Of a stretch of DNA of 54,183 bases, positions 26,776-51,144 are shown in pieces. The stretch covers positions 1-54,183 of the forward strand of contig NZ_MRCD01000064.1 of the NCBI RefSeq assembly GCF_001904745.1. Direction: 5' to 3'. The DNA comes from Calothrix sp. HK-06 (GTDB lineage Bacteria > Cyanobacteriota > Cyanobacteriia > Cyanobacteriales > Nostocaceae). Both the position numbers and the translations under genes were made by a program. The notes beneath the pieces were generated by a model that saw only the letters and a list, made by a program, of their open reading frames with translations, searched no databases and was not told where the DNA came from. Each line of letters opens with the position of its first letter. The stretch's first letter is position 1.

Positions 26776-29700
26776 TTATCCGTTGCAAAGTTTATCTTCC
26801 AACATAACTTTAGAATTATTGCTTAAATAATCTTTAACCCATTGACACCCATTATTAATTAACTGATTAACTTCTAAAGTCTTTATTTGATTATTATCAA
26901 ACCGCCAAATTTTTACGCTATTATCTATACTACCTGATACTATTGTTTTATTATCAGGACTAAAATTTACGCTCATGACTCCGGCGCCTAATTCTGGTAA
27001 TGTAGTTATTAGGTGCCCATCGATATGCCAAAGTTTGATTGTTTTATCTTCAGATGCTGAGGCTATAGTTTTACCATCTTTTGAAAAGTCTACTTTATAC
27101 ACTTCTGCTGTATGTCCTCTGAGAGTATGAAGCAATTTCCCATCGGCACGGCGCCATAGTTTTATCGTTTTATCTGCACTCGTTGAAGCTATAATTTTAT
27201 TGTCTGGACTAAAGACCACGCTGTACACCCAGTCTTTATGACCCAAAAGCGTATTTAATAATTTACCATCACTACGGCGCCAAAATTTTATTGTTTTATC
27301 TACGCTGGCAGATGCTATTATTTGTCCATCTCTACTAAAGCTTACTCCATATACTTCTGCTGTATGTTCTAATGTAGAAAGTAATTTACCTGTACTAACT
27401 TCCCAAATTTTTACAGTGTTGTCTTTACTAGCAGAGGCAATTAATTTGTTGTCTGGACTAAAAGTTATATGGTTAATTTCTGCACTGTGAGCGTTTATAG
27501 TTTGAATTAATTTATCATCTTGCCATATCTTGATGGTGCCATCACTACCTGCGGTAGCAAATTTATCTTTACTAACAGCTATACTATATATTTCTTTACT
27601 ATGTGCAGCAAAACTTTTTAATAATATTCCATTACGGTTCCATACTTTGACGTATCCATCACCACTGGCTGATATTATTTTACTACCATCAACACTATAA
27701 GCAACTGTATAAACTCCGTTACTGTGTCCACTCAATACATCTAATAGTGAAATGTCTCGGCGCCGCCATAGTTTTAGTGTACCATCTAAGCTAGCGGATG
27801 CTATATTTTTGCCGTCTGGACTAAAGACTGCGTTATAAACACCGTTATTATGTCCTTTGAATTCTTCTAATATACTGCCATTACGGTTCCAAAGTTTAAT
27901 CGTTCTGTCCCGACTTGCAGAAATTATCATTTTATCATCGGAACTAAAGCTAACACCCCAAACTGATGCTGTATGTCCTGGTATTGTTTTGATTAACTTG
28001 CCGTCGGCGACGTTCCAAAGGATAATATTTTTATCGGCACTTCCAGAAACAAGACTTTTACCGTCTTTACTATAACTAAGACTGTTTACCCATCCTTGGT
28101 GTCCTAATAATGTTTTTAGCAGGTGCCCATCGTTAATATCCCAGATTTTTATCGTTTTGTCTTCACCACCCGCAGCTATATTTTTACTATCTGGACTAAA
28201 TGCCACACTGATAATAGGGTAATTATATCCTGTTATCGTTTTGAGTAGGTGCCCGTCTGAACGACTCCATATTTTAATCGTTTTATCAGAACTTGCTGAC
28301 GCAATAATTTGTCCCGAAGGACTAAATTTCACATTATTAACGGTTTGAGTATGTCCTTTTAGGGTTGTTATCAAACTTCCATCTTCGATATTCCATAATT
28401 TTATTGTTTTATCAACGCTACCACTAGCAAGAATTTTTCCATCGGGCGCCAAGCTAACACTGTATACTGGTTCGGTATGTCCAGTTAAAGTTTTGAGAAG
28501 TTTTCCGTTGATATTCCACAGCTTTATCGTTTTATCTAAACTGCCACTTGCGATAATTTGACCATCTTTACTAAAAGCAACGCTGATAACTCCGTCTTCG
28601 TGTCCCTCGAAACGGTTACGTTCTTGAATTTGCGAAATCGATTGTTCAAGTGTGGCAATTGTCGCTACTCTAAGATGAGATGGTAAGGCAAAAGTGTTTT
28701 TTAATTGTTTTCCTGCTTTGATACTGGCAACTAACGCTTCTAACTGTTGATTCAATAATAAATTTGCTTTCGATGATTGATTTAATGCTTGAATTTCACT
28801 TATCCGTGCTTCCCTACGTTGCCAGTAAGCTAAACCACCAAAACTACATGCAGCAATACCTAATATACTGAGGGCAATAACTGCTCTTTGTGCTTGTCGA
28901 AGTCTTCGTTTTTCTTGATATTCCAGTCTTTTACGTTCAACTAAACAAGCTTCGATAAATCTTTGAATATCAAATGAAAGTTCATCTGTATACTTAATAT
29001 AAATATCTTCTGCTTCTGCTAAACGTACACCTTGAAGTAAAAAGTCACTATTTTCGTGATTCTGTAACCATAATTTTGCAGCTTGTTCGATTTGACGATG
29101 CGTTCTAATTCTGCTGCGATTCTCTTCTAACCACCATCGTAAAGTTGACCAGTGACGTATTAAGATTTCGTGGATAACTTCAACGCTCGGTTGTAAAGAC
29201 ATTATATCTGGTTCGGCGCCCTCCCCTTTACTGGTGCCTAATGATTCCTCAACATTCACAACTACTAATTTTGCCGTCGTTAAAGCTTGTAAAGTACTCT
29301 CTACTAAAGCTTGCGAAAACTTTTTCACTATTAATTCAGATTTTAATATACGTCGTCGCGTATCTTCGGTACCTTCACCCAACTGAGTTAAAGCAAGAAA
29401 AATCCATTTAGCACATTCTTTACTTTCATCATCTAAACCAGCATAAACCGAATTCGCTTTTCTTTCTAGGGCACCTGCAATACCTCCCAAATGTTGCTGA
29501 TATGCTGATAAAGTTAATTTACCTTCACAGCGATGATGCCATAATTCTTCCAAGACAAATTCTAATAAAGGTAAATCTCCTGCTGAATGCTGAAGTTCTT
29601 GCAATAAAACTTCAACTAAACTTGGTTCAACTTGTAGTCCAACTTTTTCTGCTGGGTGAATAATAACGCTACGATATTCGTCGTCGTTAAGATGGGGAGG

Positions 29701-31761
29701 AACAAATACACTCGATTTTTGGAGTAATGTAGCAAGAGTAGGAATTTCTAAGCAAGACCCGATAAAGTCAGCACGAAGTGTAATTACGAGTTTAAACTTA
29801 TCGCTGGCATATTCCAATACTCTCAAGATTAATTCTATAAAATGCTGTGTATCTTGAGTTGGCGCCAGTGTAAAAAGTTCTTCAAATTGGTCTATAACTA
29901 AGACTACCATTGCTTCTTTACTTCGCAACCAGTAAACGAAACCTTCGACACCTTGATAAAGTAGTGCTTCGAGAATATTATTTCTGTCTTCTAACTTTTT
30001 GACTAAAGTATCGAGAGGATTGGCGCCGGGACGGATACAATAAATAAGCCAGTCACCAGAAGGTAAATGTTTACCTTGTCGTAGTTGTGCAATTAACCCA
30101 GCTTGAACGACAGACGATTTTCCACTACCAGAGACGCCGACGACAGCAAGAAATGATTGCGACGCGATATGATTGAGTAGCTGCTGCGTTAAAGCTTCAC
30201 GACCATAAAAGTATTGACTATCGTTTTCACTAAAAGCGTGTAAACCTAAATAAGGGCAAATTCCTAAGTCTGTATTTTGAATTAAAGTATGTTCTTGTAC
30301 AGGGACAACTTCGATAACACCCTGCACACCAGATAACCATATATACAGTGGAGCAGTGCTAATAACTTGTAACTGTGTTAACCATCCTGCTGCGGTTAAC
30401 CCGGTGTCTTGGTCAACTGCTTGTAGAGTTTCAATTAAAGAATTGGCAAAATCGTGATTGGGAGAGGTGCCTGCTATAATACATAAACCTTTCTCTGTAT
30501 CTATCTGTAAATCATCGACCCAATCAGAAATATAGGCTTCACTGTGAGGACAATCTAGGATAATAATAAGGTGTAAACAACGAGAATGACGTAACTGTTG
30601 TCGTAACCAGTCACGACTCAAACAAATATTTTCCTCAACCGTTAATACTGCATCCTGTAACTTACCGCGTAAATATAGTAGTACAGTAGTGTTGAGATTA
30701 TCTTGTAAACACGCTTGGATAGAACTGGTTATATTTATAGGCGCCGGAGAGTGTGTAGTATCATGTGCAGATAGATATTCAATATTGAAACTACCTTGAG
30801 TTCGTAACAACTTACTCAAAGTCAAGGTTGTATTATTCGTTAAACCTTCGATAACTAAAGCAACTCGACGAGAGTTTTCGATAATTGATTGATTTCCTAA
30901 AATAATTTCTCCCACACCTTCGACTATACGCTTTGGTGTTTGCAAAGGATATTCACTATATAGATGTGTGTCTCCCTTACTGCGTCGTTGCTGGTTAATT
31001 AAACGTAACTGTTGATTAGTTTTATCTATATATCTTAGAGTTTGATGATAAACATAGCGATAAAGTCCATCTGCTGTCACAATACCACGACGAGAAGCGG
31101 CTTCACCTCGTAACCCTCGCATCAGGTAGTATGTAAACACACCATGTCCTAACTCTGGAAATTCCCAAGACTGTTGGTTATTATCGCACGAAAGCATGGC
31201 ATAGAAACCATTACTAGCTGCGGCAGCGTTTTGTAAGACTTGTAATAATTGAGGTGTTGGGTTTAAAGTACTTCCCCGTAGTGTCATACCTCCACTATGA
31301 CAAGCATCTAACCAAACAAGCTGATGACGTGCAGACGAAATTTCTAATAGCTGTAATAATTCCTGAAGTGCAAAAGCGGTATTTTCTAAATTATCCTTAC
31401 GAGTATCGCGTAAACACAAATAAGTCTGTTGTGTCGCGGCATCTATTATACCATGTCCAGAGAAATAAAATAAAATAGTGTCAGATGCTTTGGCGCCTTT
31501 GCTTATCGTCGTTAAAGACTGTCGGACATTTTCTAAAACAGGTAATTGACCAAAGTCATGATAAGTAGCAATATAAATATCAGAAAATTGTCGTGTCGCA
31601 GTTTCTAACGCTTCAGCTAAACCTTGACAATCAAGTGCAGGATACCGCAAACTAGGTAACTCTTCATCCATGTACTGATTAACCCCCAGTAGCAACAGCC
31701 ATATTTTGGGAGTTGTATTTTGCTTATGCTTAGTACTGGCGCCTACACTGACAGGAGACAT
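26776..31761 (-). CDS. Caspase-like protease / STAND NTPase / WD40 protein
   Basis: The protein has 1661 residues. Residues about 18-260 form a peptidase C14 caspase domain with the dyad His103 (FYFSGHG) and Cys154 (LDACHSGG) intact. Residues about 500-860 are a STAND-type NTPase beginning CPYLGLHAF, with FYGRE, Walker [10 protein letters not shown] (about 546) and Walker [12 protein letters not shown] membrane helix ([19 protein letters not shown], about 963-983) follows. I count 14 WD40 repeats from about 1047 to 1625, each with a GH near its start and a DKTIKLW-type end, enough for two seven-bladed propellers. The architecture suggests a sensor whose NTPase gates protease activity, as in prokaryotic NLR-like or cell-death proteins. 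The final Cys-Asn-Gly and stop derive from a dispersed repeat. Confidence 0.92.
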
Positions 31762-35071: not shown

Positions 35072-36025
35072 ATGAAATTAAAGTCATTACAAATACTCAA
35101 GAAGCCTAAGTTTTTTGTGCTTCTATCGACTCTTATCGCTTGCCTCGTAATTATTCCATTTATCGCTTTTCCAGCATTTTCTGCTACTCAAAAAGCAAAT
35201 ATCCAATTTGTCTCACCAGCTTGGGTGGCTCAAAATATTAAAAATGCAAATTTACGAATTCTGGATGTGCGAAATGTGCCGTTAGACTATATATCTGGAC
35301 ACCTTCCGAATGCAGTGAATATTGCAGACAGTGCTTTTCGTGGCCCACGAGAAGGATTACCAGTGCAGTATTGGAATAACCAAAAGCTGGGAGAGATTTT
35401 TACTAACTCTGGAGTAAATAATAACAGTCGTGTCTTAGTTTACTCAGATGGTAGAGATATTTTAGGCGCCACAATGGTTGCTTATTTGTTAGAGCGCTCT
35501 GGATTACGTGATATTGCGGTATTGGATGGAGGTTACAAAGACTATAAAGCTACACAACCTGTAACGAGAGAATTTCCTAAGTACAAACCGAGTAAATTCG
35601 TAGTTAAAGATAATCCTTCTGTCCGGGTAAGTCTTGATGAAATCAAGAAATCAATTGGTAAACCAGGTATATCAATGATTGACCCTAGACCAGAAAAACT
35701 ATTTCGGGGAGAAGAGGATGTATTTATTCGGAATGGACATATTCCAGGCGCCGTAAATATTCCTTGGGTGACATTTACACAACCAGATAATCCTCACAAA
35801 TTAAAGCCATTAGAAGAAATCAAGCAAATTCTAGCGCAAAAAAGAATTAACCCATCGAGTGACATTATCGTCACTTGCAGCACTGGCAGAGAAGCTACAT
35901 TACAGTACATCGTCTTAAAACACTTGCTCGGATATCCCAAAGTCAGAATTTACGAAGGTTCTTGGACTGAATATAGCTCTTACCCTGATTTACCTATAGC
36001 AACAGGTGCCGGACAAATCAGTTAA
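35072..36025 (+). CDS. Exported tandem-rhodanese sulfurtransferase
   Basis: The protein has 317 residues. An N-terminal signal or anchor (about residues 15-37, FVLLSTLIACLVIIPFIAF) directs it to the periplasm or membrane. The first rhodanese domain (LDVRNVPLDYISGHLPNAVN) lacks a loop cysteine. The second (MIDPRPEKLF, then NGHIPGAVNIPW) carries the active-site Cys in VTCSTGREA (about residue 270). This is the standard layout of thiosulfate or 3-mercaptopyruvate sulfurtransferases, which move sulfane sulfur from donor to acceptor. AGAGGAT precedes the ATG. It leads a run with a small peptide gene and a YeeE/YedE transporter, so thiosulfate handling is the likely job. Confidence 0.9.
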   Translation: MKLKSLQILKKPKFFVLLSTLIACLVIIPFIAFPAFSATQKANIQFVSPAWVAQNIKNANLRILDVRNVPLDYISGHLPNAVNIADSAFRGPREGLPVQYWNNQKLGEIFTNSGVNNNSRVLVYSDGRDILGATMVAYLLERSGLRDIAVLDGGYKDYKATQPVTREFPKYKPSKFVVKDNPSVRVSLDEIKKSIGKPGISMIDPRPEKLFRGEEDVFIRNGHIPGAVNIPWVTFTQPDNPHKLKPLEEIKQILAQKRINPSSDIIVTCSTGREATLQYIVLKHLLGYPKVRIYEGSWTEYSSYPDLPIATGAGQIS

Positions 36026-36298: not shown

Positions 36299-37453
36299 AT
36301 GAACAGTAATATTACAAAATACTCGCAAAAAGCACCAAAGAGACGCGCGCAAAAGTCAATTGTTTTGCTCGCTTTGGTGTTATTTACTTTTGGAACAGTT
36401 GCTTTGAGTAGTTACGGTTGGCGCCAAAGTGTATTATTTTTAATTGGTGGGTTATTTGGAATAACTTTATATTATTCGAGTTTTGGTTTTACTTCAGCTT
36501 ACCGAAAGTTTTTATTTAAACGCGAAGTCAATGGAATTTATGCTCAGTTGTTAATGTTAGCTGTTGCGACAGTTTTATTTGCTCCGATTCTTGCTTCTGG
36601 AACAGCTTTTGGACAAGAAGTTAAAGGGTCTATAGCTCCTGTTGGAATTCAAGGAGCTATTGGTGCTTTACTATTTGGTATTGGAATGCAGATAGCTTCT
36701 GGTTGTGGTTGTGGTTCTCTCTATACTGTTGGTAGCGGTAGTCTCTCAATGATTTTTACCGTGATAGCTTTTTGTGTTGGTTCGTTTTGGGCAAGTTTAA
36801 ATCGTCATGTATGGGCTAATTTACCATCTGTTCCTCCAATTATACTAGGACAGAGCTTAGGTTGGACAGGCGCCGTCTTTTTACAGTTAGCAATATTTAT
36901 ATTACTTGCTGGTTTACTGTGGGTATGGAGTAGAACAATAACGAATAAACCACCAATACCGAATTCGCTTTTATATGGCGCCGTGACTTTAGCTGTTCTA
37001 AATTTTCTCACTTTAATAATTTCTGGTCAACCTTGGCGAATAACTTGGGGTTTTGCTTTATGGAGTGCCAAAATAGCTACTATCTTTGGTTGGAATCCAT
37101 CTAATACTCCATTTTGGACTGGTAAAGCACAGCAAGCAGCATTATCGCAAAGTGTATTTGCCGATATTACCTCTGTTATGAATATTGGTATTATTCTAGG
37201 AGCATTTTTAGCAGCAGCATTTGCAGGTAGACTAATTCCCAAAACCCAAATAACTTTTAATGTCATTGCAGCAACATTCTTAGGTGGACTACTAATGGGT
37301 TATGGTGCCTTAAATGCTTTTGGTTGTAATGTTAATGCCTTTTTTGGCGGTATTGCTTCTACTAGTTTACACGGTTGGGTTTGGATTGTTTTTGCTTTAT
37401 TGGGAAGTTGTATTGGTGTTAACTTACGTCCTGTGTTTAAATTAGATAATTAG
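36299..37453 (+). CDS. YeeE/YedE (TsuA-like) thiosulfate transporter family protein
   Basis: The protein has 384 residues and about ten membrane segments. The conserved cysteine-bearing loops are GMQIASGCGCGSLYTVG (about residue 130) and GYGALNAFGCNVNAFFGG (about 345). In TsuA such cysteines relay thiosulfate across the membrane. The N-terminus is basic and cytoplasmic (SQKAPKRRAQK). It follows the rhodanese and small peptide genes on the same strand, separated only by the CGGATGTAAC hairpin. Uptake of thiosulfate or a related sulfur species is the best reading. Confidence 0.88.
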   Translation: MNSNITKYSQKAPKRRAQKSIVLLALVLFTFGTVALSSYGWRQSVLFLIGGLFGITLYYSSFGFTSAYRKFLFKREVNGIYAQLLMLAVATVLFAPILASGTAFGQEVKGSIAPVGIQGAIGALLFGIGMQIASGCGCGSLYTVGSGSLSMIFTVIAFCVGSFWASLNRHVWANLPSVPPIILGQSLGWTGAVFLQLAIFILLAGLLWVWSRTITNKPPIPNSLLYGAVTLAVLNFLTLIISGQPWRITWGFALWSAKIATIFGWNPSNTPFWTGKAQQAALSQSVFADITSVMNIGIILGAFLAAAFAGRLIPKTQITFNVIAATFLGGLLMGYGALNAFGCNVNAFFGGIASTSLHGWVWIVFALLGSCIGVNLRPVFKLDN

Positions 37454-37519: not shown

Positions 37520-38620
37520 TTAGATTTGCTTGAATGCACTGGCGCCTAGTCCTGGTAAAATATTAGTTGTTTTTTGGAGTTCTTGTTCAAGGTGTAGAAG
37601 AGTTGGCGCCATTACTGGTAAAAATGCGACTTCGCGTAGTCGTCTTGCGGTTCCACTGGGTTTTAAGTAAGCGTTGACGCCTTTGGCTTCTAACTCTAAC
37701 CAAACTGAGTCTAGTGCTAGTCTAGTTAAAGCTACTCGCAGTTCTAATATTTCACGTTTTGATGAGTTGAAGTTTTGTAAAGTACCTAGTTTCCAAATTT
37801 GGGCTTCTAACTGAGTTAATGTAAAAGCATTGTATCTAAGACGGTTGATTAATGCTTCTTCGTTGTCTCCGTCTGTACTTTGTAATGTTTCTTGTAGTGA
37901 CCGTCGTGTTATTCCTAGTCCTAAAGCACATTGCATTAATATTAATTTAGGACGAATTTGTGATAAGAATAAATCGGCGTTTTCACTAATAATCCATTGA
38001 CGAGATAAGCATACTTTATTGAGACGCAATGTACTTGTCCATGATGCTTGCAACCCTAGTAGTTGTAAATCATCTCCCCGTTGTATTCCTTTGGCTTTGG
38101 AGGGAACAGCGACTATCAATTTTTTTCCATCATCAGTTTTTGCTGTCACCACTACATAAAAGTTTTTTGGTTGCAAATTAGACACCCACGGTAAGAAACC
38201 TTGTAGAGTTACTGTGTCTCCTCGCAATGATGCATGTATTGGCGCCGAGTCCACAAAATCTTCGTTAACAAAATTTTCTAAGGCTGTGGCGCCAGAGCAT
38301 TCCGCTCGTAAAATTTTGGGCAGTATTTGCAAATTTAACCAACGGTTGGAACTTGATATTAAGTATTCAATAAATGTTCGTTGGCACCAAAATACAAATC
38401 CGCTTGTCAAGCATTGCTCTGAAACGGTTGCTATTTCTTCGACTGCGCTTAGTAATGTTCCACCTGAACCACCAAGATTCTCTGGTACACCGTGCGCTAA
38501 CCGTCCTGAAGAAGAAAGCAGTGAGAGCGATGAAGCAACACTGCACCCAGATACACCTTCATTCAGCCATCCTGCTTGTTCTGCCAAAGACAATTCGATA
38601 GTTCTATGCTGACTAACCAT
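37520..38620 (-). CDS. Acyl-CoA dehydrogenase-like flavoprotein, possibly desulfurisation-type
   Basis: The protein has 366 residues. The acyl-CoA dehydrogenase fold is indicated by GVPENLGGSGGTLLSAVEEI (about residues 39-58), ILPKILRAECSGATAL, LRGDTVTLQGFLPWVSN in the middle beta domain, and a helical C-terminal half. The sequence is divergent, and the typical catalytic glutamate context is not obvious. FMN/FAD monooxygenases of this superfamily (DszC/SfnB-like) act in organosulfur use. That role is inferred from the neighbouring sulfur genes and the divergently transcribed sulfur-poor phycocyanin. The start ATG has AGGAG at good spacing. Only three methionines occur in the chain. Confidence 0.72.
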   Translation of the reverse strand: MVSQHRTIELSLAEQAGWLNEGVSGCSVASSLSLLSSSGRLAHGVPENLGGSGGTLLSAVEEIATVSEQCLTSGFVFWCQRTFIEYLISSSNRWLNLQILPKILRAECSGATALENFVNEDFVDSAPIHASLRGDTVTLQGFLPWVSNLQPKNFYVVVTAKTDDGKKLIVAVPSKAKGIQRGDDLQLLGLQASWTSTLRLNKVCLSRQWIISENADLFLSQIRPKLILMQCALGLGITRRSLQETLQSTDGDNEEALINRLRYNAFTLTQLEAQIWKLGTLQNFNSSKREILELRVALTRLALDSVWLELEAKGVNAYLKPSGTARRLREVAFLPVMAPTLLHLEQELQKTTNILPGLGASAFKQI

Positions 38621-39010
38621 TGATGATTCTCCTTGAATGTAAGTTTGATGACATGACGAAGATAATGGGCGCCCTGACTATACACAATGCCCATCACTTT
38701 ATTAAAGTACACTTCATCGATAGAGTTTAAGTACTTTTATGATATTCACTTTGTCACGAGTTTCTCTAAAACGCAAGTGGATAAAATCAACAAATATTCG
38801 GGGCTAGATGGCGCCAGTCTTGCTTATTCGTGAGTTTGCGCCATTTAAAAACAAATTGAAAACAAATTCCTTAATAAAACTTTACAAAAAGAGGTGGTTG
38901 TGTTTGCACACTTCATGTGGCATACTAGCTTTCATAAAATACGGTAACTCGATAGGGATATTGTATTTACAAGTTAGTGACTAGAGATTCATAATTAGGA
39001 GATTGAAACA
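38621..39010. promoter_or_regulatory. Shared divergent promoter region of the flavoprotein and phycocyanin genes
   Basis: 390 bp between two divergent starts. A possible plus-strand promoter is TTGTGT at about 38898 with ATACTA 18 bases further on; the match is loose. AATTAGGAG precedes the cpcB ATG. Two GGCGCC sites are present. No known sulfur-response operator was recognised, but divergent control of both genes from this stretch is plausible. Confidence 0.45.
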
Positions 39011-39532
39011 ATGGTACTAGATGCATTCACCAAGGTTGTTGCTCAAGCAGATACACGCGGGGAGTACCTGAATAATTCGCAGTTAGATGCTTTGCTCAAC
39101 CTTGTCAGAGAAGGAAATAAGCGTGTAGATATTGTGAATCGTATTTCGAGCAATGCTTCAGCAATTGTTTCTAATGCTGCACGTTCATTGTTTGAAGAGC
39201 AACCCCAACTGATTGCTCCTGGTGGTAATGCATATACTAATCGTCGTGCAGCAGCTTGCTTACGAGATTTAGAAATTATTTTGCGCTATGTGACTTATGC
39301 CATATTTGCAGGTGATACGAGCGTGTTAGATGACCGTGCTTTAAACGGTTTGCGAGAAACTTATTTGGCACTTGGAACTCCAGGAGCTTCAGTAGCAGTT
39401 GGAATTCAAAAGCTCAAAGAAGCTTCACTTGCAATTGCAGGTGACCCAAATGGAATTACTCGTGGAGATTGCAGCGCTTTACTTGCTGAAGTGGCTAGTT
39501 ACTTTGACCGTGCAGCATCAGCAGTTGCATAA
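39011..39532 (+). CDS. cpcB: Phycocyanin beta subunit, methionine/cysteine-depleted (PC-3 type)
   Basis: The protein has 173 residues and is collinear with CpcB ([20 protein letters not shown] region; GGNAY with the Asn that is usually methylated). The chromophore cysteines are Cys83 and Cys154. They are the only cysteines; the third one usual in CpcB (VLDDRCLNGL) is Ala110 here. The only methionine is the initiator. Positions that are normally Met read Ala (RRAAAC), Leu (RDLEII) and Leu (QKLKE). This matches the phycocyanin-3 that Calothrix PCC 7601 makes under sulfur starvation. It absorbs light in phycobilisome rods. It is the first gene of a two-gene operon with cpcA. Confidence 0.95.
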
Positions 39533-39594
39533 ATTAATTAGAAACTTAAACCTTCTTTTCTTTGTACACAAACTTTGCAGGGAGATTACAAATC

Positions 39595-40086
39595 ATGTCC
39601 AAAACACCTTTAACAGAAGCAATTGCAACAGCAGATTCACAAGGTCGCTTTTTGAGCAGCACAGAATTCCAAGTTGCTTTTGGACGATTTAGACAAGCAG
39701 CAGCATCACTCGAAGCAGTGAAAACTTTGTCTGGTAAAGCGCAAAGTCTTGCTGAAGCAGCAGCAAACGCTGTGTACCAGAAATATCCTTATACCACTCA
39801 ATTACAAGGTCCCAACTATGCATCAGATGCACGTGGTAAGCAAAAATGCGTGCGTGACATTGGTTACTACTTGCGAATCATTACATATGCATTAGTTGCA
39901 GGTGGTACAGGGCCAATTGATGATTATTTGATTGCTGGTTTAACTGAAATTAACAAATCTTTTGAATTGTCACCTAGCTGGTATGTCGAAGCTCTGAAAT
40001 ACATTAAAGCTAATCATGGTCTGAGTGGCGACCCTGCTGTAGAAGCCAATTCTTACATTGATTATGTAATTAATTCCTTGAGCTAG
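39595..40086 (+). CDS. cpcA: Phycocyanin alpha subunit, methionine/cysteine-depleted (PC-3 type)
   Basis: The protein has 163 residues, the canonical CpcA length, from ATG at 39595 with AGGGAG as ribosome site. A longer frame to 39562 has no such site. Chromophore Cys85 lies in [20 protein letters not shown] and is the only cysteine; the initiator is the only methionine. The C-terminus [20 protein letters not shown] is standard. It pairs with the beta subunit, 62 bp upstream. No rod-linker or rod-cap gene follows; a terminator and then an MFS carrier come next. Linkers from another cpc operon would therefore be needed. Confidence 0.95.
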
Positions 40087-40148
40087 TTTTTCGTCGTCTT
40101 CCAGAAATTTCCTTAATTCCGATAAAGTTCTCCTATTTCTGCTTGATG

Positions 40149-40193
40149 GGTAGTGGATAGTTCTAAGCGTTACTATCTACTACCTGTTTTTTT
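40149..40193 (+). terminator. Intrinsic terminator of the cpcBA unit
   Basis: GGTAGTGGATAGT and ACTATCTACTACC pair with one G-T position around a ten-base loop, followed by TG and a run of seven T. Confidence 0.88.
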
Positions 40194-40301
40194 ATCAATA
40201 TTGATGGGAAAAAGTTGATTTCTGATTCCAATGCGTGCGTGGGAACGTTTATCCTAGGAAAAAGATGATAAAACTTTTATTCCTCGGAATTTATAAGCAC
40301 A

Positions 40302-41729
40302 ATGGCTAGCGGAAATTTATCAAGTTCACAGTCCGATGCACACAGTCTACCAAAGGTCGATACTTTAACGATGTTTCGACTGGGCTTTTTTCAAATGGCT
40401 TTAGGGATAATGTCGGTTTTGACGTTAGGTGTGCTTAACCGCATCATGATTGATGAGTTGAAGGTTCCTGCGTTTATAACAGCACTGGCTATTGCAATGC
40501 ATCAATTTGTTGCTCCGGTTCGCATATGGTTTGGACAGATTTCTGACTCAAAGCCATTTTTAGGACATCATCGTACGGGTTATATATGGTTAGGCGCCGC
40601 TTTATTTGCTTCTTCAGCTTTTTTGGCAGTACAAGTTGTTTGGCAGGTTGGTAATAGTTTACAACCAGGAGGCGCCTGGACAAGTCAAACTACAATGTGG
40701 GTAGCACTGCTAGGGTTAGTATTTGCCATATATGGAGTTGCATTAAGCGCTAGTTCTACACCTTTCACTGCACTATTAGTAGATATCTCTGATCAAGACA
40801 ACCGTTCCAAAATAGTTGGTATTGTTTGGTCAATGTTGATGGTGGGCATTATTATCGGCGCCATAACTAGTAGTGGGTTGCTTAGACAAATTCAACTAAA
40901 CGCACCAATTGAAGTTATTCAAACTCAAGTTAACCGCTTATTTACCATAATACCAGGGGTTGCATTTTTGCTGTGCTTTATTGGGACAGTTGGTGTTGAG
41001 AAAAAATACTCGCGTATGAGTACACGTTCTGCACCAACTGTTCGAGAAGATAAAATTACCCTAGGTCATGCGTTGACAATATTAACAGCTAGTCGCCAAA
41101 CAGGAATATTTTTTACTTTCTTACTAGTAATGACCATCAGCTTATTTATGCAAGATGCAGTGATGGAACCTTATGGGGGCGAAGTATTTAAAATGACCAT
41201 TGCTGAGACAACTAAGTTAAATGCATTTTTTGGAACCGGTACACTGCTTGGCTTAGGACTAACGGGTATTTTAATCGCACCACGTATTGGTAAAAAAACT
41301 ACTACCAAACTTGGATGTATTGGCGTTGCTATTTGCTTCATACTACTAATCTTTGCTGGAGTAACCGCTAATCCAAAAGTGCTGCAATTGTGTTTAATCT
41401 TATTTGGGTTTGCTTCAGGTGTCACTACAACAGGCGCCCTTAGTTTAATGTTAGACTTAACCGCCGCCGAAGCCGCAGGAACATTTGTAGGCGCCTGGGG
41501 TCTAGCACAAGCAATGTCACGTGCATTTGCAACAGTATCAGGAGGGGCAGTATTGAATTTTGGCAAATACTTATTTAGTACACCCCTAATGTCATATAGC
41601 TTAGTCTTTACAGTCCAAGCAATTGGTATGATAGTAGCGCTATCATTTTTAGCGCGCGTCAACGTCAGTGAATTTCAACGCGACGCAAAAGATACAATGT
41701 CTTCAATCTTAGAACAAGAATTAGATTAA
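40302..41729 (+). CDS. PucC/BCH-family MFS carrier
   Basis: The protein has 475 residues and about twelve membrane segments. The N-terminal block MFRLGFFQMALGIMSVLTLG, then NRIMIDELKVPAF and VRIWFGQISDSKPFLGHHRT, is diagnostic of the PucC/LhaA family, implicated in assembly of (bacterio)chlorophyll light-harvesting proteins. Cyanobacterial members may deliver chlorophyll or pigment. It contains about twenty methionines, so the sulfur-sparing composition of cpcBA does not extend to it, and a terminator separates the two. A functional link to the antenna is possible but unproven. Confidence 0.88.
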   Translation: MASGNLSSSQSDAHSLPKVDTLTMFRLGFFQMALGIMSVLTLGVLNRIMIDELKVPAFITALAIAMHQFVAPVRIWFGQISDSKPFLGHHRTGYIWLGAALFASSAFLAVQVVWQVGNSLQPGGAWTSQTTMWVALLGLVFAIYGVALSASSTPFTALLVDISDQDNRSKIVGIVWSMLMVGIIIGAITSSGLLRQIQLNAPIEVIQTQVNRLFTIIPGVAFLLCFIGTVGVEKKYSRMSTRSAPTVREDKITLGHALTILTASRQTGIFFTFLLVMTISLFMQDAVMEPYGGEVFKMTIAETTKLNAFFGTGTLLGLGLTGILIAPRIGKKTTTKLGCIGVAICFILLIFAGVTANPKVLQLCLILFGFASGVTTTGALSLMLDLTAAEAAGTFVGAWGLAQAMSRAFATVSGGAVLNFGKYLFSTPLMSYSLVFTVQAIGMIVALSFLARVNVSEFQRDAKDTMSSILEQELD

Positions 41730-45221: not shown

Positions 45222-45890
45222 TTACTTCATCTTTCGTGACTGAACTAAATAACCACAGCGGTGTTCTCCATTGATTATCCAATGAGTACGCTCGACTGTA
45301 CAATCTGGCAAAACTGCGGCAAACATTTCTAATTCGTGACCGCATATGCTGGGGAATGACTCTGCGACGTTCGATATGGCACAATTATGCTCTGCGATTA
45401 TAAAACGTTCATCCGATAAATCATTTGATTCTACCGGATGCCACTCTGCCATATAACCTTCGGCTTTTCGCAACTCCACCAGCATTGCTACCCGGTCTTT
45501 TAATGGTGCCATCCCTAGTTTTTGATGATATTCGACTGCTTTACGCTGCCACTGTAAACGTAGTATTGTACTTACCTGGTCGTGTCCCACTGTTTGAGCT
45601 AAGGTGTCTAACAGTGACACGGCAAAGTCCCCATAGCTATCGACAAATTCCTTTCGTAAGCTATCGCGTCCCTGCTGACTTAATTTATATATATGTTGCG
45701 GGCGCCCTGTTCCAGTTTGTACTGACGCTGAATTTACTATCAACTCCAAACCTTCTAAATCCTTCAAATGGCGCCTAACCGCTTGGACACTAATCTCCAA
45801 CGCATCAGCAAGTTCGAGTGCGGATGCTTTAGTATGTTTCAAAAGATACTCTAGGATATCTTGTTTAGAGGACTGCTGCGCTGTTTGCAT
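45222..45890 (-). CDS. sufR: SufR, iron-sulfur cluster repressor of the suf operon
   Basis: About 222 residues from ATG at 45888-45890. The frame can extend to 45911 only with a TTG. The N-terminal winged helix (KQDILEYLLKHTKASALELA, then DALEISVQAVRRHLKDLEG) is DeoR/ArsR-like. The C-terminal region carries four cysteines in EHNCAIS, SICGHELEMF, PDCTVERTH and EHRCGYL, which fit the Fe-S ligand set of SufR. It represses sufBCDS when it holds a cluster. It is divergent from sufB, and two predicted operators lie between them. Confidence 0.95.
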   Translation of the reverse strand: MQTAQQSSKQDILEYLLKHTKASALELADALEISVQAVRRHLKDLEGLELIVNSASVQTGTGRPQHIYKLSQQGRDSLRKEFVDSYGDFAVSLLDTLAQTVGHDQVSTILRLQWQRKAVEYHQKLGMAPLKDRVAMLVELRKAEGYMAEWHPVESNDLSDERFIIAEHNCAISNVAESFPSICGHELEMFAAVLPDCTVERTHWIINGEHRCGYLVQSRKMK

Positions 45891-45952
45891 TATCGTCCTG
45901 GTTGGGTTCAAAAATAAAATTCAGAAAATTGATCCAGAAAATTTGACTTTAA

Positions 45953-45966
45953 CAACATTCTTGTTG
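45953..45966. promoter_or_regulatory. Predicted SufR operator 1
   Basis: CAAC, six bases, GTTG: the inverted repeat known for SufR binding. It lies within a longer AACAA/TTGTT symmetry between sufR and sufB, on the sufR side. Confidence 0.85.
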
Positions 45967-45988
45967 TTAATTTAGCGTAAAATAAAGA

Positions 45989-45994
45989 TATATT
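45989..45994 (+). promoter_or_regulatory. Candidate -10 box of the sufB promoter
   Basis: TATATT lies between the two SufR operators, with TTGTTA 19 bases upstream as a weak -35. A repressor on both operators would cover it. Confidence 0.5.
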
Positions 45995-45997
45995 AAA

Positions 45998-46011
45998 CAA
46001 CATCTTTGTTG
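45998..46011. promoter_or_regulatory. Predicted SufR operator 2
   Basis: CAAC, six bases, GTTG, centred 45 bp from operator 1, about 130 bp before the sufB ATG. Confidence 0.85.
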
Positions 46012-46138
46012 TTTTACTCTTAAATATATTCTAACAGCCCTGTTGCCCCGTGGTAACAAAAACCTAAAATCAGCCTTATAAAGCTGATTAGCCCGTCGAA
46101 CACCCTTAAAGAGAACGCATAGGACAAGAGAACTACCA

Positions 46139-47578
46139 ATGAGTGCTACTGTCAAAACCCTAGTCAACCAACCCTACAAGTATGGCTTCGTCACCGATAT
46201 AGAGGCGGACACTATACCGCGTGGGTTAAGCGAAGACATTGTCCGCCTCATCTCCGAAAAAAAGAATGAACCGGAGTTCATGCTGGAGTTTCGTCTGCGA
46301 GCGTATCGCCAGTGGTTAAAGATGACTGAGCCAGATTGGTCTGGTCTAAATTACCCACCCATCAATTACCAAGACATTATCTACTACTCGGCGCCAAAGC
46401 AAGCCAAGAAAAAATTAAATAGTTTGGATGAGGTAGACCCAACGTTGCTAGAAACGTTTGAAAAGTTGGGTATTCCTTTAACTGAGCAGAAGCGTTTGGC
46501 GAACGTAGCAGTAGATGCGATTTTTGATAGCGTATCGGTTGCAACTACTTTTAAAGATAAGCTCGCTAAAGACGGTGTAATATTCTGTTCCATTTCTGAA
46601 GCATTACACGAGCATCCCGAACTTGTGAAGAAATATTTGGGTAGCGTCGTTCCTCCTGCTGACAACTATTTTGCGGCTTTGAATGCTGCCGTGTTCAGCG
46701 ATGGTTCGTTTGTGTATATTCCGAAGGGTGTAAAGTGCCCAATGGAATTATCTACTTACTTCCGTATTAACAGTGGTGATACTGGACAATTTGAGCGCAC
46801 CTTAATTGTCGCCGAAGAAGGTAGCTATGTATCGTACCTCGAAGGCTGTACGGCGCCGATGTATGATAGCAATCAATTACACGCCGCAGTTGTAGAGTTA
46901 GTAGCTCTCGACAATGCCGAAATTAAATATTCCACTGTGCAAAACTGGTATGCAGGAGATGTTAACGGTAAAGGTGGTATTTACAACTTCGTTACCAAGC
47001 GCGGTTTGTGCCAAGGTGTTAACTCCAAAATTTCTTGGACACAAGTAGAAACAGGTTCAGCTATTACTTGGAAATATCCAAGCTGTGTATTAGTTGGTGA
47101 TAACTCTGTTGGAGAGTTTTATTCTGTAGCGCTAACCAATAACATGCAGAAAGCGGACACTGGAAGCAAAATGGTTCACGTTGGCAAAAATACCCGTAGC
47201 ACAATTATCTCTAAAGGAATTTCTGCCGGAAAATCTAGTAACAGCTACCGTGGTTTAGTCAAAGTTAACCCCACAGCAAAAGGCGCCAGAAATTACTCAC
47301 AGTGCGACTCAATGTTAATTGGGGATAATGCCCACGCGAACACTTTTCCATATATCCAGGTACAAAACCACACCGCCAAAGTCGAACACGAAGCATCGAC
47401 ATCAAAGATTGGAGAAGACCAACTATTTTACTTCACACAGCGGGGTATTTCATCTGAAGACGCAATATCAATGATGATAAGCGGCTTCTGTAAAGATGTA
47501 TTTAACCAATTACCAATGGAGTTTGCCGTCGAAGCAGACAAATTACTCAGCCTCAAACTCGAAGGCAGCGTCGGCTAA
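46139..47578 (+). CDS. sufB: SufB, Fe-S cluster scaffold subunit
   Basis: The protein has 479 residues, the usual length. Sequence blocks [60 protein letters not shown] and [15 protein letters not shown] are highly characteristic. With SufC and SufD it forms the SufBC2D complex that assembles Fe-S clusters in the cytoplasm from sulfur delivered by SufS. It is the first gene of sufBCDS, under SufR control. A nested hairpin repeat separates it from sufC. Confidence 0.97.
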
Positions 47579-47586
47579 TTTTACAT

Positions 47587-47657
47587 CTTGTGGGGTGGGC
47601 ATCCTTGCCCGCCCACAGACAAATACAAATCACAGGCAGGGATGCCTGTTCCACAAG
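47587..47657. repeat. Nested hairpin repeat between sufB and sufC
   Basis: Outer arms CTTGTGG (47587-47593) and CCACAAG (47651-47657) enclose GGGTGGGC/GCCCGCCC and CAGGCA/TGCCTG stems. This GGGCATCC/GGATGCC type is common in filamentous cyanobacteria. It lies in the operon mRNA, eight bases after the sufB stop. Confidence 0.75.
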
Positions 47658-47676
47658 ACAGATAACAACAGGAAAC

Positions 47677-48465
47677 ATGATTATTGAAAACAGTGAAGTA
47701 GTGCTGTCAGTGCGTGACTTGACGGCAAGCGTTGATGAAACTCCAATCCTCAAAGGTGTAAACTTAGAAGTCCGCGCGGGCGAAATTCACGCCATAATGG
47801 GACCCAACGGTTCCGGCAAAAGCACTCTCTCCAAAGTACTAGCAGGACACCCAGCATACGAAGTCACAGGTGGCGAAGTTATTTTTAAAGGGCAAAACCT
47901 ATTAGAAATGGAACCCGAAGACCGCGCGCGTAATGGTGTATTTCTTGCTTTCCAATATCCTTTAGAAATTCCAGGTGTCACAAATTTAGACTTTTTGCGC
48001 GTAGCATATAACTCAAAGCTTAAAGCACAAGGTTTGGAAGAATTAGAACCTTTTGACTTTGAAGATTTGATTTACGAAAAGCTGGATGTCGTCAAAATGG
48101 ACGCAGCATTTTTAAACCGCAGCGTTAACGAAGGGTTTTCCGGTGGTGAGAAAAAGCGTAACGAAATATTACAAATGGCGCTTTTAGAACCAGCAGTAGC
48201 AATTTTAGATGAAACAGACTCAGGTCTAGATATTGATGCCCTCAAAATTGTATCGAGTGGGGTAAATCAATTAGCTAAACCAGAAAACGCCACAATTATG
48301 ATTACCCACTATCAGCGGCTGCTTAATTATATAGTTCCCGATTATGTGCATGTCATGGCGCGTGGAAAAATTCTAACTTCTGGTGGTAAAGAATTAGCGT
48401 TGAAATTAGAAGAACGCGGTTACGACTGGGTTTTAGAAGAATTTTCTGAAACTGTGGGGGTGTAA
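47677..48465 (+). CDS. sufC: SufC, ATPase of the Suf complex
   Basis: 262 residues from ATG at 47677 with AGGAAA before it. A longer frame to 47590 runs through the repeat and is rejected. ABC-type ATPase motifs are Walker [10 protein letters not shown] (about residue 39), signature [10 protein letters not shown] (about 155) and Walker [15 protein letters not shown]. SufC energises cluster assembly on SufBD. Its stop is one base before the sufD ATG. Confidence 0.97.
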
Positions 48466-48466
48466 G

Positions 48467-49816
48467 ATGATAACACAAGTTTCTCCTAGTCCTATTCCAA
48501 ATTCCAATGTTGTTAGTTTAACGTCTACTTTGTTAGATAGAGATGATTATTTGACAGGGTTATTAAACAACGTTGTCGTTGGGGAGACGCAACATTGGTT
48601 ACAAGAAATTAAACAGCGTGCAGCAAATTCGGTACGTCATTCAATTTTACCAACCAACCGTGACGAAGAATGGCGTTTTACAGATTTATCCAAATTAAAA
48701 CAGATAAATTTCAAAAGTGTAGAGACCGAATTAATACGGTCTCTACAACCCCAAATTATACCCGAAGCCCAAAACAGCCGTTTGGTCTTTATTAACGGTG
48801 TATACGCACCCGAACTATCAGCAATATCAGGTTTACCCGAAGGAATATTAGTTACAAATTTAGCTAATTTACCTGAAGAATATACTGTAAAAGCACAAGA
48901 ATACCTAGCTCAAGCAGAAGGTGCCTTAGAGGTATTTACAGCTTTGAACACTGCGGGTATGCAGGATGCTGCGGTTATTTGGGTGTCGAAAAATGTAGTA
49001 GTAGAAACACCAATTCATTTGGTATATATTACTGCTGGTGAGAGTGCTATTTCTTTGCCGCGTTGTTTGGTAGTGGCTGATACTGGTTCACAAGTAAGTT
49101 TTGTAGAAGAATATGTGACAGGCAAGATGCCTGTAGAACAAGAGAGTAGTTATTTCACCAATGCAGTTACAGAAATCTGGATTTCTGATAATGCTAGTGT
49201 GAGTCATACTAGAGTACAGAAGGAAGATTTTTCAGCGTTTCATGTTGGTAAGACTGCTGTTACTCAAGCACGTTATAGTCGCTATACCTGTAATGCTATT
49301 AATATTGGTGCGAGCTTAGGACGCCATAATTTAGAGATTTTACAAACTGGTGAGCAAACAGAGACTACTCTGAATGGGTTAAGCATTATAAAAGGTACAC
49401 AAGTAGCGGATATGCACAGCGCTATTGCTTTAAATCATCCTAATGGTGTTTGTAAACAACTACAAAAGAATATTGTTGGTGATAAAGCGCACGCTATTTT
49501 TAATGGTAAAGTATTCGTTCCTAAACCAGCACAGCAAACCGATGCAGCACAATTAAACCGTAACTTAATGTTAACGAGTAAAGCGCGAGTTGACACAAAA
49601 CCTCAACTAGAAATAACCGCCGATAACGTCAAATGTGCCCACGGCGCCACAGTTAGTCAGTTAGAAGATGATGAAATTTTCTACCTGCAAAGTCGAGGTA
49701 TTGATGAGAATAGTTCGCGTCATCTTTTAATCAATGCCTTTGCTACTGAGATAATTAATAATATTTCTGTTACCTCTTTACGCGATAATCTTTTAAACGA
49801 AGTCAAACAATTTTAA
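48467..49816 (+). CDS. sufD: SufD, Fe-S assembly complex subunit
   Basis: The protein has 449 residues. DEEWRFTDLSKLKQINF near the N-terminus and TVSQLEDDEIFYLQSRGIDE with HLLINAFATEI at the end are SufD hallmarks. It partners SufB and SufC. Two palindromic repeats are inside the reading frame: 48719-48746 (encoding VETELIRSLQ) and 49118-49134 (encoding TGKMPV), both in poorly conserved parts. The protein therefore carries repeat-derived peptide without losing its frame. Spacing to sufC is one base; sufS follows after 62 bp. Confidence 0.96.
   Translation: MITQVSPSPIPNSNVVSLTSTLLDRDDYLTGLLNNVVVGETQHWLQEIKQRAANSVRHSILPTNRDEEWRFTDLSKLKQINFKSVETELIRSLQPQIIPEAQNSRLVFINGVYAPELSAISGLPEGILVTNLANLPEEYTVKAQEYLAQAEGALEVFTALNTAGMQDAAVIWVSKNVVVETPIHLVYITAGESAISLPRCLVVADTGSQVSFVEEYVTGKMPVEQESSYFTNAVTEIWISDNASVSHTRVQKEDFSAFHVGKTAVTQARYSRYTCNAINIGASLGRHNLEILQTGEQTETTLNGLSIIKGTQVADMHSAIALNHPNGVCKQLQKNIVGDKAHAIFNGKVFVPKPAQQTDAAQLNRNLMLTSKARVDTKPQLEITADNVKCAHGATVSQLEDDEIFYLQSRGIDENSSRHLLINAFATEIINNISVTSLRDNLLNEVKQF
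48719..48746. repeat. GTAGAGAC hairpin inside the sufD reading frame
   Basis: GTAGAGACCG, loop AATTAATA, CGGTCTCTAC: a perfect ten-base stem of the intergenic GTAGAGAC family, here fully translated. Confidence 0.85.
49118..49134. repeat. ACAGGCA/TGCCTGT hairpin inside sufD
   Basis: ACAGGCA, AGA, TGCCTGT, followed by AGAACAAGAG. It resembles the CAGGCAGGGATGCCTGTTCC part of the 47587 repeat. Confidence 0.7.
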
Positions 49817-49822
49817 GCACAC

Positions 49823-49874
49823 AACTAGGAGTTAGATACAAACAACTCCTAACTCCCAACTCCTAACTTCTAAC
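49823..49874. repeat. Short tandem heptamer repeat (AACTCCT type)
   Basis: Several AACTCCT/AACTCCC units from 49843, preceded by the inverted AGGAGTTAG, between sufD and sufS. A single related unit is near 41780. Confidence 0.65.
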
Positions 49875-49878
49875 TATT

Positions 49879-51144
49879 ATGACTCTTGCACAAGACATTA
49901 CCATTGCCCACAGAGTACGTCGTGACTTCCCTATTCTCCACCAAGAAGTTAACGGCAAGCCTCTTGTTTATTTAGACAGTGCAGCTACTTCGCAAAAACC
50001 GCTGTTTGTTCTCGATACATGGCGCCAATACTACGAAGGCTACAACGCTAACGTTCACCGTGGCGCCCATACTCTTAGCGCTAAAGCAACAGACGCTTAC
50101 GAAGCAGCGCGCGATAAAATAGCAGCTTTCGTAAATGCCAACTCGCGCAACGAAATCATTTATACCCGCAATGCTTCTGAGGCTATTAACTTGGTAGCTT
50201 ATAGCTGGGCAATGAATAACTTAAAAGCAGGGGATGAAATAATTCTCTCGGTGATGGAACACCACAGCAACTTAGTACCTTGGCATTTTGTCGCTCAGAA
50301 AACGGGTGCGGTGTTAAAGCATGTGGAACTAACAGAAGAAGAAACTTTTGATTTTGAACACTTTAAGACATTAATTTCAGAAAAAACTAAATTAGTATCA
50401 GTAGTGCATGTCTCAAACACCTTGGGATGCATTAACCCCGTCCAAGAAATTTGCGCGCTCGCTCATAAATATGGCGCCAAAGTTTTAATTGATGCTTGCC
50501 AAAGTGTTCCTCATATGCCTGTAGACGTACAAGAAATAGATTGTGATTGGCTAGTAGCCTCCGGTCATAAAATGTGTGCCCCTACTGGTATTGGTTTCTT
50601 ATACGGAAAAGAAGAAATACTCAACGCTATGCCACCCTTCTTAGGCGGTGGAGAAATGATCGCCGATGTATATTTAGACCATTCCACCTACGCAGAACTA
50701 CCACATAAATTTGAAGCTGGCACACCCGCTATTGGTGAAGCTATTGCATTAGGCGCCGCAGTAGATTATTTAACTAAACTAGGTATGGATCAAATACATG
50801 CCTACGAAGCCGAATTAACATCATACTTATTTGAACAACTCGAAACCATCCCCGATATAACCATACATGGCCCCAAACCCAACGCCAACGGATTTGGAAG
50901 AGCAGCACTAGCATCCTTCACAGCAGGAGACATCCACCCCAACGACCTATCAGCATTACTAGACCAAGAAGGTGTAGCAATACGTTCCGGACACCACTGT
51001 ACACAACCCTTACACCGTTACTTAAACCTAACAAGCGGAACAGCACGCGCGAGTTTAGCCTTCTACAACACCCACCAAGAAATCGACGTATTTATCAAAG
51101 CCCTAAAAGACACAATCGACTTCTTCACCAGCATGTTAGGGTAA
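49879..51144 (+). CDS. sufS: SufS, group II cysteine desulfurase
   Basis: The protein has 421 residues. The PLP lysine is in [18 protein letters not shown] (about residue 236) and the catalytic cysteine in [14 protein letters not shown] (about 374). HHSNLVPW and the N-terminal [11 protein letters not shown] are typical of SufS. It removes sulfur from cysteine and passes it as a persulfide to the SufBCD scaffold, usually through SufE, which is not in this window. It is the last gene of the suf operon. Confidence 0.97.

Follow-up and report, generated by a model that had tools for sequence, protein, structure and literature searches.

Calothrix sp. HK-06 carries, in addition to an ordinary phycocyanin, a phycocyanin pair whose two subunits contain no methionine beyond the start residue and no cysteine beyond the chromophore sites (hereafter sulfur-free). 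We interpret this pair, which lies in the window (the whole stretch of 54,183 nucleotides that we analyzed), as an accessory sulfur-sparing phycocyanin of the phycocyanin-3 (PC-3) type that would be repressed by an Rrf2-family protein through an operator-like repeat and, when made, would rebuild the antenna on ordinary linkers. To this explanation as a whole we assign a probability of about 0.82. The pair consists of the following genes.

39011..39532, plus strand: cpcB, PC-3 type beta subunit, 173 aa; Met1 is its only Met, and Cys83 and Cys154 are its only Cys
39595..40086, plus strand: cpcA, PC-3 type alpha subunit, 163 aa; Met1 is its only Met and Cys85 its only Cys

We placed the start of cpcA at the ATG at 39595 and not at the listed TTG at 39562. 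Both products exceed the NCBIfam equivalog cut-offs for phycocyanin subunits (CpcB, 295.2 bits against 279.3 for the beta model; CpcA, 296.3 bits against 269.45 for the alpha model), and residue counts bear out the first-pass annotation, which had reported that only the initiator Met and the three chromophore Cys remain. A phage origin was considered and ruled out, the pair having no match in the phage collection searched. The pair is very likely an accessory sulfur-sparing antenna of the PC-3 type, and the recurrence of its likely control site beside sulfur-scavenging genes makes production under sulfur exhaustion very probable.

A family search of the genome (9.99 Mb, 243 contigs) found one other phycocyanin pair, on contig C189, where it is followed by ordinary linkers and cpcE/F. 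This is the ordinary, Met- and Cys-containing phycocyanin of the strain: its CpcB has 7 internal Met and 3 Cys and its CpcA 4 internal Met and 2 Cys, or 11 internal Met and 5 Cys for the pair. Rather than being equally poor in these residues, an outcome that had been named as counting against sulfur sparing, the C189 copy is thus rich in them. The two pairs differ at 61 of 332 aligned sites with the start columns excluded (63 of 334 with them). The proposed same-genome alignment revealed that every one of the 13 Met and Cys sites of C189 without a chromophore (11 internal Met, 2 Cys) is replaced in the window pair, as follows (C189 to window, C189 numbering).

Beta subunit: M28L, M30L, M38V, M79A, M86L, C109A, M134L, M157L
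Alpha subunit: M24F, M69L, M94I, C98A, M107I

Ala and Leu do occur at such sites, as had been claimed, but not exclusively, as Ile, Val and Phe are also found there. The window pair gained no Met or Cys and kept the three chromophore Cys, and all 28 Leu, 14 Ile and 10 Pro positions of the C189 pair are unchanged in it. Were the changes placed at random, a loss of Met and Cys of this extent would have P = 1e-10. With the start Met excluded, an alpha-beta pair contains 3 sulfur atoms in the window version and 16 in the C189 version.

No linker-domain match was found in the window. The genome as a whole gave eight such matches, of which C189 and C111 hold two each and apcE on C209 four, in proteins that have 3 to 17 Met each, the start counted, and the linker-domain search found no sulfur-free rod linker. 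Because every linker found in this strain contains Met and none adjoins the pair, the sulfur-free subunits would have to use ordinary linkers or none. Linker genes adjoin the pair at 12 of the 31 accessory loci that we compared, and at five of the loci with linkers (L085 and L087-L090) the start Met is the sole Met of every linker found. The PC-3 operon of PCC 7601 has its own sulfur-poor linkers, which the window locus lacks; since there are no linker genes at the locus, the window encodes a PC-3-type protein and not a PC-3-type operon.

Sulfur-free pairs are shared by many relatives. A scan of named genomes, in which the best 80 of 231 relatives were kept, found such a pair in 34 of those 80; among the loci, L091 has no cpcA on its contig and L081, from a metagenome-assembled genome, carries an additional Cys in CpcB. 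We also drew 195 genomes evenly from the order and read the 10 with a best match of at least 80% identity, which yielded at least 5 with sulfur-free pairs, HK-06 included. We collected 117 pairs with a sulfur-free query, so the set is enriched in sulfur-free pairs; their internal Met number 0 in 38 pairs, 1 in 1, 2 in 6, 3 in 8, 4 in 12 and 5-11 in 52. The distribution has a sharp peak at zero, and the intermediates are mostly Nostoc-type main operons. Most carriers examined also have an ordinary phycocyanin; Calothrix sp. PCC 7103 and PCC 7716 are among the carriers that can be cultured. Six plasmid records matched, and the two best differ, the pair from Kovacikia being sulfur-free and that from Pseudanabaena not; the former is carried by Kovacikia minuta CCNUW1 on a plasmid of 1.2 Mb (L376, 9001-10204), where a homologue of CysK (72%) lies some 1.4 kb upstream of it.

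Maximum-likelihood analysis of 102 unique pairs placed the sulfur-free ones in two groups. Thirty of them, including the window pair, constitute one clade with support 95, which remained at 83 once every column with any Met or Cys had been removed. Those of Nostoc T09 and Nostoc 106C fall within the main-operon pairs linked to phycoerythrocyanin (support 100); because they are placed there, outside the 30-member clade, they are best read as having arisen independently.

We turned to the genes around these pairs. In the window, the pair has the neighbors listed here.

35072..36025, plus strand: two-domain rhodanese/sulfurtransferase, a homologue of which also adjoins Microcystis sulfur-free pairs
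36299..37453, plus strand: sulfur transporter of the YedE/YeeE kind (PF04143, Sulf_transp)
37520..38620, minus strand: divergent SfnB-like gene; closest NCBIfam model, at 36.7 bits (cut-off 430.9), SfnB (sulfur acquisition oxidoreductase)
40302..41729, plus strand: PUCC-family membrane protein, found after the pair in 4 loci; a candidate member of the system only

With a score so far below the cut-off, the SfnB name is a lead only. The product has no Pfam match, and a gene of this kind is divergent to sulfur-free cpcB at 7 loci, the window included. Elsewhere in the window, sufR is divergent to sufBCDS (45222-51144), an arrangement also present in L080 and probably part of an ordinary chromosomal flank outside the system, and 26776-31761 encodes a 1661-aa protein that by eye resembles a protease of the caspase type combined with an ATPase part and WD40 repeats.

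To count sulfur genes near the pairs, we used 18 queries across -6/+7.5 kb. SbpA, CysA, CysW, CysK, SsuA, SsuC, SsuD, MetY and an NtaA-type monooxygenase lay above their NCBIfam cut-offs; SsuB, TauD, DszC/SfnB and a Crp-type regulator lay below them, and CysT was taken without a family scan. Repeats of named genomes (L061, L062, L063, L064, L067, L068 and L078) were dropped beforehand, and pairs with at least 7 Cys (phycoerythrocyanin) were excluded. At least one sulfur gene was present at 20 of 31 accessory sulfur-free loci (60 genes), compared with none of the 63 ordinary loci and none of 20 control windows, a comparison biased in favor of the sulfur-free loci in that the queries were drawn from them. 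The control windows were hand-picked at arbitrary, non-random places in 7 genomes, and an enlarged control set (40 windows, 668 kb) likewise had no sulfur genes. Counted by upstream-sequence cluster, with the upstream of L128 skipped, sulfur neighbors occur in 12 of 18. The other 11 accessory loci lack a neighboring sulfur gene, four of them lying on stretches shortened by contig ends (L091, L092, L107 and L117).

The contexts comprise SfnB-like/YedE/rhodanese, SsuA/SsuB, TauD/FMN-monooxygenase, SbpA-CysTWA with Ssu, CysK with a Crp-type regulator and rhodanese, and MetX/MetY; because they vary between lineages, the association is not a single inherited gene order. The Microcystis pairs (L067, L130-L134) adjoin CysK, a Crp-type regulator, an MgtC-family protein and a rhodanese, though not all of these are present on the short contig of L134. 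Separately, we observed a protein of about 607-625 aa at L086 934-2811, with homologues in L085, L088, L089 and L090, that matches nothing in Pfam (E 0.001) or NCBIfam (E 1e-10); in L085 and L088-L090 it adjoins ssuA.

Upstream of cpcB, two elements stand out.

38898..38926, plus strand: promoter-like block, TTGTGT-N17-CATACT, conserved upstream of cpcB
38940..38965, no strand assigned: operator-like inverted repeat of 26 bp, TACGGTA-NNTCGATNNNNN-TACCGTA, with 2 mismatches in the window

The first occurs, with some base changes, at eight sulfur-free loci (the window, L080, L081, L082, L083, L084, L086, which is from Fischerella, and L094). A consensus scan of 38600-40320 did not call it as a promoter and found no terminator, and it is by its conservation that we regard it as promoter-like. 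At these loci, as in the window, the inverted repeat comes just 3' of it, its half-sites ACGGTA and TACCGT being 12 bases apart. A loose version of the pattern (ACGGTA-N9..13-TACCGTA), run on seven genomes, was rejected, giving 2+2 hits in the HK-06 genome and 2+2 in the reversed control. We therefore refined the pattern to 19 letters with a fixed spacer, allowing up to 3 mismatches and using the reversed pattern as control. It returned 28 strand rows in the HK-06 genome, corresponding to 21 distinct places, against 1 row for the control, a count that is in part circular in that the pattern was shaped partly from cpcB upstreams and HK-06 ssuA upstreams. Six relatives gave 5, 23, 6, 18, 12 and 18 rows, against 2, 3, 0, 3, 3 and 1 in the reversed control.

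The window contig, together with C192, C218, C112, C243, C22 and C233, which carry homologues of a sulfur island in Calothrix PCC 7716 (below), accounts for 19 of the 21 HK-06 sites; the stretches read of C17 and C220 contain no such homologues. The contig of the pair is a different one from that of most sites. One site sits just upstream of ssuA (C218), another upstream of an oxidoreductase-ssuA pair (C192), and three more are within an ssu gene cluster (C112), while the stretches examined at a fifth ssuA locus (C22) and at the HK-06 sbpA loci have none save one weak hit with other spacing. Within 400 bp upstream of cpcB, a site with up to 4 mismatches was found at 8 of 35 sulfur-free loci and at 0 of 62 ordinary ones. 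From this distribution, the window pair is likely under an operator common to sulfur-scavenging genes; because only 8 of the 35 have the site, the other sulfur-free loci must be regulated otherwise. Together, the Met- and Cys-rich paralogue, the adjoining sulfur genes, their enrichment at accessory loci and an operator-like site common to sulfonate-transport genes support the sulfur-sparing antenna that the first-pass annotation had proposed.

The sites also cluster in three relatives, where the clustering is free of the circularity mentioned above save for the cpcB sites themselves. In Calothrix PCC 7716 (G200), 16 of 18 sites fall in a 153.6-kb sulfur stretch with the sulfur-free pair near its edge, compared with none in 65 kb of its flanks and none in 668 kb of control DNA; of the two outside, one is located ahead of an Rrf2 gene. 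In G202, 9 of 12 sites are in 116 kb that include the sulfur-free pair, and in G203, 6 of 7 are on an 89-kb contig with it. The PCC 7716 stretch contains genes for rhodanese, YedE, SfnB-like protein, cpcB3A3, SbpA, CysT, CysW, CysA, a Crp-type regulator, several SsuA, SsuB, SsuC, SsuD, TauD, DszC, NtaA-type monooxygenases, a sulfatase-like protein and CysK, together with many genes that have no evident sulfur link. One further segment of it (L318 9718-13301) encodes two flavoproteins with a small ferredoxin-like protein between them, as judged by eye and with no family match; the flavoprotein scanned resembled fumarate-reductase-type models far below cut-off, and a similar flavoprotein-ferredoxin pair lies near 10098000 on the same chromosome.

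Many of the scavenging proteins of this island are themselves poor in sulfur. Sulfur-annotated proteins of at least 200 aa in the PCC 7716 stretch have a median Met+Cys content of 1.47% (28 proteins), compared with 2.56% for 330 control-window ORFs (p = 1.6e-7). Three have no Met or Cys beyond the start.

G200, L316 16944-18125: DszC-like protein, 393 aa
G200, L316 5217-6326: SbpA, 369 aa
G200, L316 14253-15116: TauD-like protein, 287 aa

SsuB, SsuC and CysK of the stretch have ordinary Met+Cys contents. Sulfur-assimilation proteins low in sulfur are known from other organisms, and the low content here agrees with the same sulfur-saving pressure.

Which protein reads the repeat? On C233, a site with 2 mismatches lies between a 417-aa gene and an Rrf2-family gene (C233 29368-29829), adjoining metY and metX. 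The product of the latter scored 113.8 bits with the Rrf2 superfamily model (cut-off 73.3), which places it in that family; its best equivalog is CymR, at 104.5 bits and below the cut-off of 195, so we call it CymR-like only. We examined 30 Rrf2 loci and found a site with up to 3 mismatches upstream in 5 of the 6 that are at least 70% identical to the HK-06 protein and in 0 of the 24 below 70%, a count in which L365 and L369, with no ORF recognized, were taken as lacking the site and L368, L372 and L374 have it only at 4 mismatches. The five are in HK-06, G199, G200, G201 and G202, each with the site some 270-360 bp ahead of the gene; the remaining one, another copy in G200 at 77% identity, is without it. 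G203 has a site upstream of an mgtC-rrf2 gene pair, and cysK is close to repeat sites on HK-06 C218 and in PCC 7716. These arrangements suggest that the Rrf2 protein is, on balance, the reader of the repeat, and it is likely a repressor of the site-bearing genes.

A different assignment, possible but to our minds less likely, would keep the sulfur-sparing antenna and have the repeat read by a non-Rrf2 regulator acting as activator, such as the Crp-type protein of the PCC 7716 island. A Crp-family gene does lie within that island, and one is found beside CysK at 4 of the 5 named Microcystis sulfur-free loci. Against it stand the repeats upstream of Rrf2 genes in five genomes and the location of the repeat downstream of the -10-like block, a position usual for repressors. 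Moreover, the Microcystis sulfur-free loci, those with the Crp-type gene included, show no repeat within 400 bp upstream of cpcB.

Sulfur-free phycocyanin is not always an accessory. In five genomes (G163, Nostoc ATCC 43529, N. linckia z4, Nostoc T09 and Nostoc 106C; loci L071, L112, L113, L125 and L142, respectively) the sulfur-free CpcB is the only one of its kind among the matches listed. The next matches have at most 62% identity and are presumably phycoerythrocyanin, phycoerythrin or allophycocyanin, and each sole copy is part of a cpc operon that also has linkers and cpcE/F. Such genomes, four of them Nostoc, speak for the idea that Met and Cys loss protects the antenna from oxidation (methionine sulfoxide and disulfides under light or desiccation stress), with sulfur saving as a by-product: a permanent sulfur shortage is not obvious there, and none of the five loci has adjoining sulfur genes. 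We nonetheless hold oxidation to be improbable as the cause, as it leaves unexplained the sulfur genes beside accessory pairs, the operator common to sulfonate-transport genes and the low Met and Cys of sulfur-scavenging proteins. That the window pair is a silent or decaying duplicate of drifted composition, as the absence of the adjacent linkers of the PC-3 operon might hint, is scarcely credible given its intact open frames, chromophore Cys and family scores, the improbability of its Met and Cys loss under random change and the retention of that loss across a 30-member clade.

The closest known system is PC-3 of PCC 7601, in which alpha and beta subunits without Met or Cys beyond the start and the chromophores form a paralogue beside an ordinary phycocyanin; elemental sparing in this antenna is a well-known case. 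We take its operon layout to be cpcB3A3H3I3D3. PC-3 of this strain, which goes by the names Calothrix, Tolypothrix and Fremyella PCC 7601, is reportedly the subject of Mazel and Marliere 1989 and Gutu et al. 2011. The window pair resembles it in residue content and in being a paralogue of ordinary phycocyanin, and differs most clearly in having no adjacent sulfur-poor linkers. PCC 7601 was not among the named loci compared; four that have the PC-3 layout (L085 and L088-L090, L090 being an identical copy of L089) belong to the 30-member clade, and these have ssuA/ssuB neighbors and no repeat, whereas the window pair has SfnB-like, YedE and rhodanese neighbors and the repeat. At low sulfate, according to PMC4424289, PCC 7601 produces antenna proteins poor in sulfur amino acids.

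CymR, in Bacillus and Staphylococcus, is described in PMC2869319 as a repressor of cysteine genes that acts in complex with CysK. Our candidate is similar in being an Rrf2 protein with CymR as its best equivalog, in having its gene beside metX-metY and in the presence of cysK near repeat sites. It differs in falling below the CymR cut-off and in a presumed regulon that holds a light-harvesting protein.

The replacements in the window also bear on a phycocyanin of known structure. For that of Nostoc R76DM (PDB 6JPR), the portion of PMC6614406 consulted reports 12 conserved substitutions and explains them through packing and linker binding. Five of the 12 are Met or Cys losses at sites also lost in the window pair (alpha C98A; beta M79A, M86L, C109A and M134L); the table of that report prints the first two beta sites as 179 and 186, and its text as 79 and 86. 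The words methionine and sulfur were not found in the main text of PMC6614406. Our analysis thus offers a sulfur-saving reading for substitutions otherwise explained.

In the literature searched, which mostly did not extend to subscription papers, we found no description of the operator, the island or the Rrf2 regulator, nor was the regulator of sparing in PCC 7601 named. The protein type is already on record; what looks new within that literature is the locus without linkers, along with the operator, the island and the genomes in which the sulfur-free copy is the sole one.

We propose the following mechanism. While sulfur is in supply, the Rrf2 (CymR-like) protein would bind the repeat just downstream of the promoter and block transcription. 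When cysteine or its precursor is low, it would release the repeat, and the scavenging genes and cpcB3A3 would come on together. Rods would then be rebuilt with sulfur-free subunits on ordinary linkers, and the Met and Cys of the old antenna would become reusable. More broadly, and with moderate confidence, we suggest that one Rrf2 (CymR-like) repressor governs a large sulfur-starvation island in cyanobacteria of the Calothrix type (some 150 kb long in PCC 7716), an island that couples organosulfur scavenging, by proteins with few or no Met and Cys residues, to the exchange of the main antenna protein for a sulfur-free copy on ordinary linkers, and that some Nostoc lineages have come to rely on the sulfur-free form only, two strains independently. 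Sulfur-free phycocyanin is found across Calothrix, Microcystis and Leptolyngbyaceae, and the DNA site, the candidate repressor and the set of likely co-regulated genes defined here can be tested in culturable strains.
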